In this document: piece by piece, positions 135 through 7,219 of the stretch | How the letters are laid out: every line of letters starts with the position of its first letter | How positions within the stretch are numbered: the stretch's first letter is position 1 | From: Desulfuromonas sp. AOP6 | GTDB taxonomy: Bacteria; Desulfobacterota; Desulfuromonadia; Desulfuromonadales; SZUA-540 | NCBI RefSeq assembly: GCF_009731355.2 | Contig: NZ_AP022810.1 | Location: forward strand, 682,001 to 746,000 | Direction of reading: 5' to 3' | Length of the DNA stretch: 64,000 nt | The notes under the pieces: model-generated | Told to the model about the DNA's origin: nothing | Databases searched by the model: none | The model's input: the letters and a program-made list of their open reading frames with translations, nothing else | Translations under genes and position numbers: made by a program

Positions 135-1241
135 ATGGCCAAGACGGACGAGTTCATCCCCAAGTGGATCGCTTGGGAAAGCACCCAGCGCTGCAATCTC
201 AACTGCGTGCATTGCCGCTGCTCTTCGGACCTGCAGTCCTCGGAAGGGGATTTTACCACCGAAGAGGCCTTCAAGCTCATTGACGATATCTGCGAGGTGT
301 CCAAACCGGTTATGGTTCTTTCCGGCGGCGAGCCTCTTATGCGCAAGGATATTTTCGAGATCGCCCGCTACGGCACCGACAAGGGACTGCGCATGTGCAT
401 GGCCACCAACGGCACCCTCATCACCGACGAGGTCTGCCGGCAGATGAAGGAGGCGGACATCAAGATGGTCTCTCTCTCCCTCGACGGTTCCACAGCGGCC
501 ATCCACGACGATTTCCGTAACTGTCCCGGCGCCTTCGAGGGGACGATCCGCGGTGCCGAGACCCTCAAGCGCAACGGCATCAAGTTTCTGGTCAATTCCT
601 CCTTTACCAAGCGCAACCAAAAGGATATCGGCGCCACCTTCAAGCTGGCCAAGAGTCTGGGGGCGACGGCCTGGTACATGTTCATGATCGTTCCCACCGG
701 CCGTGGCGAAGAGATCATGAACGAGCTTATCTCCAAGGAGGATTACGAGGAGATTCTCGCCTGGCACTACGAGCAGGAGAAGGGGGAGGACGACATCCTC
801 ATGCGTCCCACCTGCGCCCCGCACTACTACCGTATCGTGCCGCAGATGGCCAAGGCCGAAGGGGTCGATTTCCAGCGGCGCAGCCTGACTTTTTCCACTG
901 GTGGCGGCAAGGGCTGCATCGCGGCCCAGACCATCTGCCTCATCGACTGCTACGGCAACCTCAAGCCCTGCTCCTACTTCCACTCTTCCGTCGGCAACGT
1001 CAAGCAGATCCCCTTCAAAGAACTCTGGTTCAATTCCAAGGTGTTCAACGACCTGCGTGATTTCAAGAAATATCAGGGCAAGTGCGGCGAGTGCGAATTC
1101 ATCAACGTCTGCGGCGGCTGCCGGGCCCGGGCCGACGCTGTGTACGGCGACTACATGGCCGAGGAGCCTTTCTGCAATTACATCCCCAATCGCACGCGCA
1201 AGCGCATGGAGAAGGAAGCGGCGGAGAACGCGGCAAAATAA
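135..1241 (+). CDS. Radical SAM/SPASM protein, AhbD/NirJ-like
   Basis: A 368-residue radical SAM enzyme. The [4Fe-4S]-SAM motif C20-x3-C24-x2-C27 lies near the N-terminus and is followed by the SGGEPL loop. The C-terminal third is cysteine-rich (about residues 255-350, including [13 protein letters not shown]), a SPASM domain that holds auxiliary iron-sulfur clusters. Family members with this layout include AhbD (oxidative decarboxylation of Fe-coproporphyrin III to haem) and NirJ/AhbC. It is the first gene of a run with hemE and hemH, so a role in oxygen-independent haem synthesis or modification is likely. The exact reaction cannot be read from the sequence; a peptide-modifying SPASM enzyme is the alternative. 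Confidence 0.8.
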
Positions 1242-3623: not shown

Positions 3624-3657
3624 AAAAAGGGCCTCCCCAATGTGGGAGGCCCTTTTT
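3624..3657. terminator. Bidirectional terminator between hemH operon and cbpA
   Basis: A 14-bp perfect stem (AAAAAGGGCCTCCC with GGGAGGCCCTTTTT, six-base loop) with A-runs and T-runs at its ends. It can terminate both convergent transcripts and touches the stop codon of the minus-strand gene. Confidence 0.9.
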
Positions 3658-4547
3658 CATAGTCCGTTTTTTTGTAGATCCTCCAGCAGTCGTCGCTGTT
3701 TGTCGGTGAGTTTCTGTGGCACTTCCACCTCGATGATAGCGTAGAGATCGCCTTTTTCCTGTTTGCCGCTGCGGGGAACGCCGAAGCCCTTGAGGCGGAT
3801 CTTCTTGCCGGCCGAGGTGCCGGCGGGCACTTTGACGCGTTTGGGGCCTTCGAGGGTGGGAACCTCCACCGAAGTGCCGAGGCAGGCGCCGCTGAAGGGC
3901 ACCTGCACACGGGCGTAGAGATCCTGGTCTTCGCGGGTGAGGGTGGGGTCAGGGTCCACCTTGATTTCCAGGTAGAGGTCCCCGGCAGGCCCCCCCGTCG
4001 GGCTGGGCCCACCCTTGCCGCCGACGCGCAGCTTCTGGCCGGGCTCGACTCCGGCGGGAATGCGCACCTGCAGGTGTTCCACCTGGTCCCCCTGTTTGTA
4101 GTCGACCCGCCGCTCACCGCCAAGGACGGCCTGGCGAAAGGGAATGGTGAGGGTCATCAGGTAGTCCTGCCCTTTGACGACCTGTCGGCGAGAGGAACCG
4201 GTAAAAGGCTGTTTGCGGCCGCCACTGAACAAATGACTGAAAATATCGTCGGTGCCGAAGCCGAACTCGCGGAAGATATCCCCCACATCGAAGTCGCGGT
4301 AAATGTCCTCCTGGCTGTAGCGCTGGTGGAAGCCGGTGGACCCGAACTGGTCGTACTGTTTCTTCTTGTCTGGGTTGGATAGTACGGCGTAGGCCTCGGT
4401 GATCTCCTTGAAGCGCTCTTCCGCCTTTTTGTCGCCAGGGTTTTTGTCGGGATGATATTTCAAGGCCAGTTTGCGATAGGCCTTCTTGATGTCTTCAGCC
4501 GAGGCATCCTTGGCTACGCCGAGCACCTCATAGTAGTTCTTGGTCAT
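3657..4547 (-). CDS. DnaJ-family co-chaperone, CbpA-like
   Basis: A 296-residue type II J-protein. It has an N-terminal J domain (residues 1-70) with HPD at 32-34, a short G/F-rich linker and two C-terminal beta-barrel substrate domains. The cysteine-rich zinc finger of DnaJ is absent, as in CbpA. It would stimulate DnaK ATPase activity and deliver clients. AGGAGA precedes the ATG by a few bases. It is convergent with the hemH operon and divergent from hemG. The symbol cbpA would fit, but several paralogues are usual. Confidence 0.9.
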
Positions 4548-4843: not shown

Positions 4844-6256
4844 ATGATGCGCGTCGCCATTATCGGAGCTGGTATTTCCGGTCTTTCCACGGCTTTTGCC
4901 ATTGAACGTCTAGCCCGTGAAGCCGGTCTCGACCTGCAGACGGTCGTTTATGAAAAGAAGGAGCGCACCGGCGGAAAAATTCACAGTATCAGGGAAGAGG
5001 GGTATCTGTGCGAATGGGGGCCTAACGGTTTTCTCGACAACAAGCCCATGACTCTCGAACTCTGTGATCGGCTGGATATCCAGGGGCAGTTGGCCCGCTC
5101 CAACGACAACGCCCGCAAGCGCTTCATCTATTCGGAAGGGCAACTGCACCGCCTGCCGGAAAACGGGCCGTCTTTTCTGAAATCCCCGCTCATTTCCTGG
5201 CCCGGCAAAGTCCGCCTCGCCTGTGAGACGCTGATTCCCACCTATCGGGGTGACGACGACGAGACTCTCGCCCATTTTGCTCGCCGCCGCCTGGGCGAGG
5301 AAGCTCTCGATAAGCTCATTGCCCCCATGGTCTCCGGTATCTTTGCCGGTGATCCGGAAACCATGAGTCTCAAGAGCTGTTTTCCCCGCATCCATCAACT
5401 CGAACAGGAATACGGCGGTCTGATCAAGGCCATGCTCAAGCTGGCCAAAAAGAAGAAGGCCGAGCGCAAGGCCGGCAAGGTCGTGGCCAGTGCAGCCGGC
5501 CCCGGCGGTGTCCTCACCTCGTTTGTCGGTGGCATCCAGGAATTGACGGACCGTCTGCAGGAGGCCGTCGCCGGCGAGGTGCGCACCGGGGTGGGGGTCA
5601 ACGGCGTCCTGCCCAAACAAGGGGGGTTCGAGCTGCACCTGCAGGACGGTTCCATCGAGGAGGCGGAGGTGGTGGTCAGCGCCGCCCCAGCCTATGCCCT
5701 GGCCGGCATGCTGGAAGAGTCGCTGCCCGAGGTGGCGAAAACGCTGCAGGATATCCCCTATGCCTCCATGAACGTCGTCTGCTTCGGCTATGCGCGGGAG
5801 CAGATTGCCCGGGATCTGGACGGGTTTGGCTATCTCATCCCCCGCAAGGAAGGGCGGCACACTCTGGGAACCTTGTGGGATTCCAGTATTTTTCCTAACC
5901 GCGCCCCCGAAGGGCATGTCCTTTTGCGTTCCATGATGGGTGGCGCCACCCATCCCGGCGCCTTCGACCTGGCGGAAACGGAGGTCAGGTCGCGGGTTAT
6001 GGAGGACCTTGCCACCATCATGGGGATCAAGGCCGAACCGCAATTCGTGCGCATCTTCCGTCACCGCCGCGCCATCCCTCAGTATGTGGCCGGTCACGCC
6101 AAGAAATTGTCGGCTCTGGATGAGAGGCTCGGGGCTTGCCCTGGATTATTCTTCACGGGCAACGCCTACTTCGGCGTCGGTCTCAACGACTGCGTCAACG
6201 CCTCCAACCTGGCGGCGGAAAAAGTGCTGGCCCATATTCGGGCCACCAAGGCCTGA
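4844..6256 (+). CDS. hemG: Protoporphyrinogen oxidase, HemY-type FAD enzyme
   Basis: A 470-residue flavoprotein that oxidises protoporphyrinogen IX to protoporphyrin IX. The N-terminal dinucleotide-binding motif is GAGISGLSTAFAIE, followed by an acidic residue in VYEKKERTGGK. The C-terminal FAD contact is GNAYFGVGLNDCV. The length matches the oxygen-dependent HemY/PPOX family, although members occur in strict anaerobes. The start is ATGATG, and the second ATG three bases later is equally possible. The gene is 15 bases ahead of the membrane protein that follows. Confidence 0.93.
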   Translation: MMRVAIIGAGISGLSTAFAIERLAREAGLDLQTVVYEKKERTGGKIHSIREEGYLCEWGPNGFLDNKPMTLELCDRLDIQGQLARSNDNARKRFIYSEGQLHRLPENGPSFLKSPLISWPGKVRLACETLIPTYRGDDDETLAHFARRRLGEEALDKLIAPMVSGIFAGDPETMSLKSCFPRIHQLEQEYGGLIKAMLKLAKKKKAERKAGKVVASAAGPGGVLTSFVGGIQELTDRLQEAVAGEVRTGVGVNGVLPKQGGFELHLQDGSIEEAEVVVSAAPAYALAGMLEESLPEVAKTLQDIPYASMNVVCFGYAREQIARDLDGFGYLIPRKEGRHTLGTLWDSSIFPNRAPEGHVLLRSMMGGATHPGAFDLAETEVRSRVMEDLATIMGIKAEPQFVRIFRHRRAIPQYVAGHAKKLSALDERLGACPGLFFTGNAYFGVGLNDCVNASNLAAEKVLAHIRATKA

Positions 6257-6271
6257 GAATTCGCTGGATTG

Positions 6272-7219
6272 ATGCGTCGAATCCGCACATCAGCCGCGCC
6301 CGCCCCTGCGGGTCGCGATATTGGCCGTATCATCGGTCTGGTGGTTGTTTTCTACCTGTCCTGGGTGGGGTTTTCCCTGGGGGTTCAGCACCTGCCGTCC
6401 CCGGCGGCGCTCAAGGAGCTGCTCCCTCTGCTGACCCTGGGGCTGCATCTGGGCTTTGCCACTCTTGCCCTGGCCCTCTTCCACCACCATTTCAGTCGGT
6501 TATTCGCAGTCAACCCTTCCCTGCGCCAGGTATTGATGGCCTTCTGTGTTCTGGTTGCCCTGGCCCTGTACGGTGGCAGTCGTTGGCTGGCGCTCTCACC
6601 GTCGGTTTTCGTCGATTTGATCAGCACCGCCAATCTGCTTTTGCTGGCCATGGTGCTGGGGAGTTGGATGACGACAGCCTTGAGCCGTCCCGCCGAGTTG
6701 GTGCCTGTCTGTCTGGTGATGTCGCTGGTCGATATTTTCAGCGTGAGTCGCGGTCCCAGTCGCTTTATCGCCGGCCGCATCGAGGAGTTCTATCTGAAGG
6801 GGAGGGAAGGGCTGCCCCCCGTCGGTGACTTTCTGCTCATCAAAATGACGCTTCCTGGCGGCTCGGCGACCTTTCCCGTCTTTGGCGTATCGGACTGGAT
6901 CATCGTCGCCTTTCTGGCTCTGGCCGCCGCCCGGTTCGAGTACAACGACAATCTGCTCGGGCCCGGGCTCGCCACCCTTGGCGAGAGAAAACGACCGACT
7001 CTCTACTTCCCGCTGCCGGCGGCCGCCCTGCTCCTCGCCGTCCTGCTGGCCCAATTTACGGGCGTTTTCCTGCCGGCCCTTCCCATCATTTCCGTACTCT
7101 TTCTGGCCTTCCTCTTTGTGCGTTATCCGGCCAGCCGTCAGCTGCTGCGGACCGACTGGTTGCTGGTGCTGACCGCCTTTGCGGCCATGGCCGCTCTCAT
7201 GCTGCTTCCCCCACGTTAG
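6272..7219 (+). CDS. Multi-pass membrane protein with presenilin-like motifs
   Basis: A 315-residue protein with about nine hydrophobic segments. The ATG was chosen over a TTG just before it. One segment ends in L-V-D154-I-F-S-V-S. A later one begins F-G-V-S-D208-W-I-I-V. A third contains P268-A-L-P271 at its start. Presenilin and signal-peptide-peptidase aspartyl proteases (family A22) have the same order: a YD-type aspartate, a GxGD-type aspartate and a PAL motif. Archaeal members also have D-x-x-S-V after the first aspartate. Here the glycines of GxGD are only partly kept (G-V-S-D). An intramembrane protease fold is therefore plausible but not shown. It lies 15 bases after hemG and is probably co-transcribed. 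Confidence 0.6.
   Translation: MRRIRTSAAPAPAGRDIGRIIGLVVVFYLSWVGFSLGVQHLPSPAALKELLPLLTLGLHLGFATLALALFHHHFSRLFAVNPSLRQVLMAFCVLVALALYGGSRWLALSPSVFVDLISTANLLLLAMVLGSWMTTALSRPAELVPVCLVMSLVDIFSVSRGPSRFIAGRIEEFYLKGREGLPPVGDFLLIKMTLPGGSATFPVFGVSDWIIVAFLALAAARFEYNDNLLGPGLATLGERKRPTLYFPLPAAALLLAVLLAQFTGVFLPALPIISVLFLAFLFVRYPASRQLLRTDWLLVLTAFAAMAALMLLPPR

Follow-up and report, generated by a model that had tools for sequence, protein, structure and literature searches.

Presenilin is the catalytic subunit of gamma-secretase, the enzyme that generates the amyloid of Alzheimer's disease. It is oriented in the membrane opposite to signal peptide peptidase (SPP), and its active-site loop is cytosolic. Presenilin-like enzymes had not been shown outside eukaryotes before archaeal ones were reported (PMC2947513), and a review from 2015 includes archaea among the organisms with A22 (PMC4343526). 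The phrase "bacterial presenilin homologue" is used in PMC8396450, at a place in the available text where no species is given, and we take it as the archaeal presenilin homologue (PSH). No description of a bacterial presenilin-type family was found in the open-licence literature. The archaeal enzyme MCMJR1 has nine helices, YD, GMGD and PPL motifs, and its two aspartates on TM6 and TM7; these aspartates (D162 and D220; PMC2947513) are 58 residues apart. In presenilin-1 (PS1), TMD6a (268-277) is followed by beta1 (288-290) and beta2 (377-381), and then by G382-x-G384-D385 (PMC10290658). The second glycine of the GxGD motif matters for activity in both PS1 and MCMJR1, and its change from Gly to Ala in MCMJR1 makes cleavage considerably slower (PMC2947513).

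Herein, a gene annotated as hypothetical in sediment bacteria is analysed in Desulfuromonas sp. AOP6. Its product belongs to a divergent bacterial family and is most probably an intramembrane aspartyl protease of presenilin/SPP fold, the activity being predicted. The fold and the catalytic layout are strongly supported, by prediction and by conservation, and the putative protease activity is likely. The initial annotation had proposed a presenilin-like protease next to hemG, and the presenilin-like reading is now supported by invariant motifs and by two predicted models whose top matches are A22 only.

The gene, its neighbours and its distribution

The window, meaning the whole stretch of 64,000 nucleotides that was analysed, covers positions 682001-746000 of a 3.27 Mb genome. 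Two genes within the window are needed first.

6272..7219, + strand: CDS of the presenilin-like protein, 315 aa; ATG at 6272, stop end at 7219; ORF intact (homologues, dN/dS)
4844-6256: hemG, protoporphyrinogen oxidase (NCBIfam TIGR00562 above cut-off)

An alternative start, TTG, lies at 6269. The translation of the reading frame places the proposed sites where they had been put from the letters: D154 at codon 6731-6733, D208 at 6893-6895 and PALP (residues 268-271) at 7073-7084. The gene is under purifying selection, as is evident from a dN of 0.055 and a dS of 0.417 against its closest homologue, which is 90% identical.

The gene lies 3' of hemG, its ATG at 6272 coming 16 bases after the hemG stop. 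This adjacency, a point of the initial annotation, holds for the close relatives of the window, with hemG directly upstream in five loci around its genus (duplicates included), is not conserved beyond them, and says little about function. Small genes resembling VF530 and SUI1 follow directly downstream in the same direction in 12 and 9 loci, respectively (L068 and others; names by inspection), a recurrence that belongs, as far as seen, to the Malonomonas-type subfamily. The gene-neighbour analysis found no conserved neighbour that might reveal a substrate. With no fixed neighbours, nothing in the gene context ties the family to haem synthesis, and no gene stands out as a possible substrate. 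The surroundings of hemG hold other genes. The radical SAM protein encoded at 135-1241 of the window has AhbD haem b synthase as its closest match, with 453.7 bits, which is below the curated cut-off of 500; its gene is immediately followed by hemE and hemH, with hemG nearby, so that an AhbD-like gene stands beside protoporphyrin-route genes. hemH and hemG are separated by a DnaJ/CbpA-like chaperone gene (3657-4547, - strand) of opposite direction.

The family comprises at least 63 distinct proteins after removal of duplicates and is found mainly in Desulfuromonadales. A query with the single protein returned homologues in 71 of 147 related genomes, and the family profile found members in 72 of 136 genomes of the same order, in single copy each except for one split gene. 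In a sample of the phylum, the profile was positive in 2 of 297 genomes, both from the same order. When about 85,000 species genomes were scanned for conserved peptides of the family, a pattern-based approach that would miss distant relatives, 59 loci came out, mostly in Desulfuromonadales; the remaining ones came from some Desulfobacteraceae-like, Desulfofustis and Desulfosediminicola genomes. One homologue in a draft genome (G054:C505:1069-1874) is split over two frames, by a frameshift or an assembly error.

Predicted fold and register with presenilin

The window protein was modelled with AlphaFold2 (AF2) without templates from 28 sequences (pLDDT 91.3, pTM 0.89). A second AlphaFold2 model was made of the Malonomonas rubra member, which belongs to another subfamily and is without the last helix (pLDDT 92.3). 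The nine helices claimed for the window protein agree with the prediction. The parts are as follows.

6308..6388, + strand: predicted TM1, residues 13-39 (AF2); paired with no presenilin helix, as the VIA range begins at 48-52
6422..6511, + strand: predicted TM2, residues 51-80, paired with PS1 TM1 (AF2, structural alignment)
6515..6586, + strand: predicted TM3, residues 82-105 (AF2)
6605..6673, + strand: predicted TM4, residues 112-134 (AF2)
6689..6748, + strand: predicted TM5, residues 140-159, with the first putative catalytic residue D154 in the motif VDIFSV; D154 pairs with PS1 D257 (AF2, alignments)
6755..6796, + strand: TM6a-like helix, residues 162-175, after the conserved G161-P162; counterpart of PS1 TMD6a 268-277 (AF2; PMC10290658)
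6836..6850, + strand: predicted beta strand 1, residues 189-193, containing K191; counterpart of PS1 288-290 (both models)
6869..6886, + strand: predicted beta strand 2, residues 200-205, just ahead of the second Asp; counterpart of PS1 377-381 (both models)
6884..6895, + strand: G205-V-S-D208, GxGD-like motif with the second putative catalytic Asp (alignments, profile alignment)
6887..6934, + strand: predicted TM6, residues 206-221, with D208 (AF2)
7013..7060, + strand: predicted TM7, residues 248-263 (AF2)
7073..7084, + strand: PALP, residues 268-271, in structural register with PS1 P433-P436 (alignments, both models)
7076..7123, + strand: predicted TM8, residues 269-284, starting at PALP; counterpart of PS1 TM9 (AF2, structural alignment)
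7148..7204, + strand: predicted TM9, residues 293-311, an extra C-terminal helix of the window's subfamily only, absent in the Malonomonas type (AF2)

The structure prediction, named in the initial annotation as a way to refute the presenilin-like reading, did not refute it: the two aspartates are placed on adjacent predicted membrane helices that flank the segment of the TM6a-like helix and the beta pair. These helices are TM5 and TM6, not TM6 and TM7, and the core has 8 helices in both models. The predicted order between the aspartates (helix 162-175, strands 189-193 and 200-205, then G205-x-x-D208) is the same as in PS1.

The window model was compared with the PDB by Foldseek. Ranks 1-10 were all presenilin-1, with E values of 0.005-0.07 and probabilities of 0.91-0.99, and from rank 11 onward the probability was at most 0.10. 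In the VIA structural realignment of the same model, ranks 1-21 were all A22, and the next, unrelated structure had a Z of 5.0. Similarly, ranks 1-22 were all A22 for the Malonomonas rubra model, and the next scored 5.2. The window model gave Z 12.0 with PS1 (201 residues, rmsd 3.8 Å), 11.1 with SPPL2a, 8.8 with PS2 and 7.6 with archaeal PSH, and the Malonomonas rubra model gave 13.1 with PS1 (202 residues, 3.6 Å) and 9.6 with PSH; by the tool's own warning, helical bundles can reach a Z of up to about 13, and the values of 12-13 fall in that range. The fold match carries weight because a single family fills all the top rows, the gap to the next structure is large, and the two models agree. 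Among viral structures, the best match of the window model was a giant-virus signal peptide peptidase. Presenilin, SPP and PSH were the only convincing fold matches, which supports a presenilin fold for the predicted structures.

The register of the third motif was given by the structural pairing. Residue 287 of the window model paired with PS1 452, and residue 280 of the Malonomonas model paired with PS1 457. Both pairings place PALP exactly on PS1 P433-P436.

Conserved residues and comparison with A22 proteases

Residues D154, D208, G205, P268, L270 and P271 never vary in the 89-90 aligned rows, which represent the 63 distinct proteins. S157, G161, P183, K191, P202 and F204 are invariant or nearly so, and the PALP site reads P-A/V-L-P throughout the main alignment. 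Of the acidic residues deep within predicted membrane helices, only D154 and D208 are invariant, and every homologue that covers the two sites has both of them, so the search of the alignments for one without either aspartate came up empty. E142 (codon 6695-6697; residue 131 in L069), at the cytoplasmic start of the D154 helix, is also invariant in all 63 members; we know of no counterpart role for it in presenilin.

The signature motifs are changed in the family. The residue preceding D154 is V or A, rarely S or I, in all members, and never forms YD. The GxGD glycines had been described as partly kept, which is borne out: the first (G205) is invariant, and the second is replaced in the main alignment by S, A or T (69, 18 and 3 rows in a first count, duplicates included), never being G. 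Since these signature features are absent, the family is not filed in the GxGD family; it is called a presenilin-fold variant, most likely with the same working. A divergent subclade (L097, L098 and L099 in genomes G051, G073 and G065), which matches the main profile at about E 1e-50, retains the two aspartates and P-x-L. In this subclade PALP becomes PALV or PGLV with the loss of the last proline, and the position ahead of the second Asp may hold V (in one member) or T.

With presenilin-1/-2 (MEROPS A22A; PDB 6idf, 6iyc, 7y5x), the family shares the fold over about 200 residues (Z 12-13, within the helical-bundle range given above), aspartates on two adjacent helices, a TM6a-like helix, a beta pair before the second Asp and the PALP register. 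It differs from presenilin in having V/A in place of Y before the first Asp and GxSD/GxAD in place of GxGD, in lacking the large cytosolic loop, in having no known gamma-secretase partners, and in its predicted orientation, which is opposite. By a helix mapping that uses alignment ranges and helix counts only, there are two helices fewer between the matched first helix and the first Asp, and one extra helix at the N-terminus; the difference follows from the position of the first Asp on the fifth helix and from the alignment of the family's second helix with PS1 TM1.

With SPP/SPPL2a (MEROPS A22B, PF04258; PDB 9k93), the shared features are the fold (Z 11-11.6), the predicted orientation and the catalytic layout, and in the beta1 region the family has (I/V)K-L-x-F-P, a stretch similar to IKLVFP of human SPP. 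The family has PALP where SPP has QPALL, it has no PF04258 match, and the differences in YD, GxGD and the helix set are those noted for presenilin. The archaeal PSH/MCMJR1 (PF06550; PDB 4hyg, 4y6k) is likewise prokaryotic and of about 300 aa, with a fold Z of 7.6-9.6 and a shared D-x-x-S-V; the resemblance of this context at the first Asp to archaeal PSH had been pointed out from the sequence, and it stands. The spacing of the aspartates is 54 in the family vs 58 in MCMJR1. In the YD, GMGD and PPL motifs, the nine helices and the location of the aspartates the family differs from MCMJR1 on each count, and it has no PF06550 match.

At the sequence level, the window protein alone gave no match to Pfam, NCBIfam or PDB sequences, and the family profile gave none to PDB sequences. 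PF06550, PF01080, PF04258 and NCBIfam A22 were absent from the matches listed for 28 and for 63 members; under the same settings, the control proteins MCMJR1 and a Natrinema homologue matched PF06550 strongly. Canonical PF06550 members were found neither in the window genome nor in 20 relatives and 297 genomes of the phylum. Viral contigs scanned with SPP and PSH queries gave no match. The best profile alignment of the family with human PS1 paired D154 with D257, D208 with D385 and P268 with P433, and none of 150 locally shuffled PS1 decoys had all three motifs in register. In the profile alignments D208 also paired with the GxGD aspartates of MCMJR1 and of human SPP. The scores of the family profile against PS1, MCMJR1 and SPP were non-significant and inside the decoy range, so sequence homology to A22 is only suggested. 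The query letters for MCMJR1 and for the PS1 core were confirmed against PDB records, and those for SPP only through a match to SPPL2a.

Orientation, activity and meaning for the family

The positive residues are distributed unevenly between the two sides of the membrane. Summed over the loops, K+R came to 14.0 per protein on the N-terminal side vs 4.0 on the opposite side, a bias with the same direction in 63 of 63 rows. By the positive-inside rule, this places the N-terminus in the cytoplasm and the TM5-TM6 segment with the PALP loop in the periplasm. From the charge bias only, we infer a periplasmic active-site loop, SPP-like and opposite to presenilin. The presenilin-type orientation, with a cytoplasmic active-site loop, a periplasmic N-terminus and type I substrates, is unlikely. 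It would agree with the closest structural matches, which are to presenilin-1 with its cytosolic active-site loop, but orientation is not dictated by a similar fold, SPPL2a comes within about 1.5 Z of PS1, and the charge bias points the other way in every row.

It is quite unlikely that the protein is a presenilin-fold non-protease, such as a scaffold, a transporter or a pseudoenzyme, whose buried aspartates are kept for structure or ion binding. Such a function would fit the residue before D208, which is S, A or T and never the G that matters in PS1 and MCMJR1 (PMC2947513), and also the neighbour genes, which offer no clue to proteolysis. Against it, the two aspartates, the G at -3 and P-x-L are the most conserved residues of the family, and pseudoenzymes usually lose such residues; the substrate-gripping beta pair is also predicted in both models. 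Similarly, it is very unlikely that an unrelated polytopic protein carries D, D and PALP in presenilin order by chance. The motifs are short and the profile scores non-significant, but the invariance is family-wide, both models are topped by A22 only, the PALP register is exact, and the profile alignment is in register. Least probable of all is a relative of the type IV prepilin peptidases (MEROPS A24), which are known bacterial polytopic GxGD aspartyl proteases: the family is likewise bacterial and polytopic with two Asp and a GxxD motif, but its PAL motif and its TM6a/beta pair are A22-like, no prepilin peptidase family is among the Pfam/NCBIfam matches listed for the 63 members, and FlaK and other A24 structures are absent from the fold matches listed, which alone does not exclude A24.

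The preferred reading is thus named again: an intramembrane aspartyl protease of the presenilin/SPP fold. In such an enzyme, D154 on TM5 and D208 on TM6 are predicted to face each other, to activate a water molecule and to cut the peptide bond within the membrane. By analogy with PS1, the substrate helix would enter sideways and unwind, and its end would be pinned as an extra strand beside the paired strands 189-193 and 200-205 and the residue just ahead of PALP. Because the spans cut by SPP are of type II, the likely substrates are single spans with N-in (type II) topology, and leftover signal peptides or signal anchors may be among them. Candidate roles are the clearance of membrane proteins or signalling via regulated cleavage.

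Since the described presenilin-type proteases come from eukaryotes and archaea, the family would represent a divergent branch in bacteria, built on a simpler plan. It is fairly probable that it forms a third presenilin/SPP-fold branch native to bacteria, with an 8-helix core, a GxSD motif and a stand-alone protease that faces the periplasm. If this is true, the fold occurs in bacteria too, and the catalytic module of gamma-secretase can do without the canonical GxGD and without all nine helices. With its reduced helix set and with Ser/Ala occurring naturally at the GxGD glycine, the family would serve as a new natural experiment on the active site, and small stand-alone enzymes would be offered by culturable bacteria such as Malonomonas rubra and Desulfuromusa kysingii. 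The question would also be raised whether the fold is ancestral or has moved between domains. For bacterial membrane biology, the family adds a candidate intramembrane aspartyl protease beyond the prepilin peptidases.
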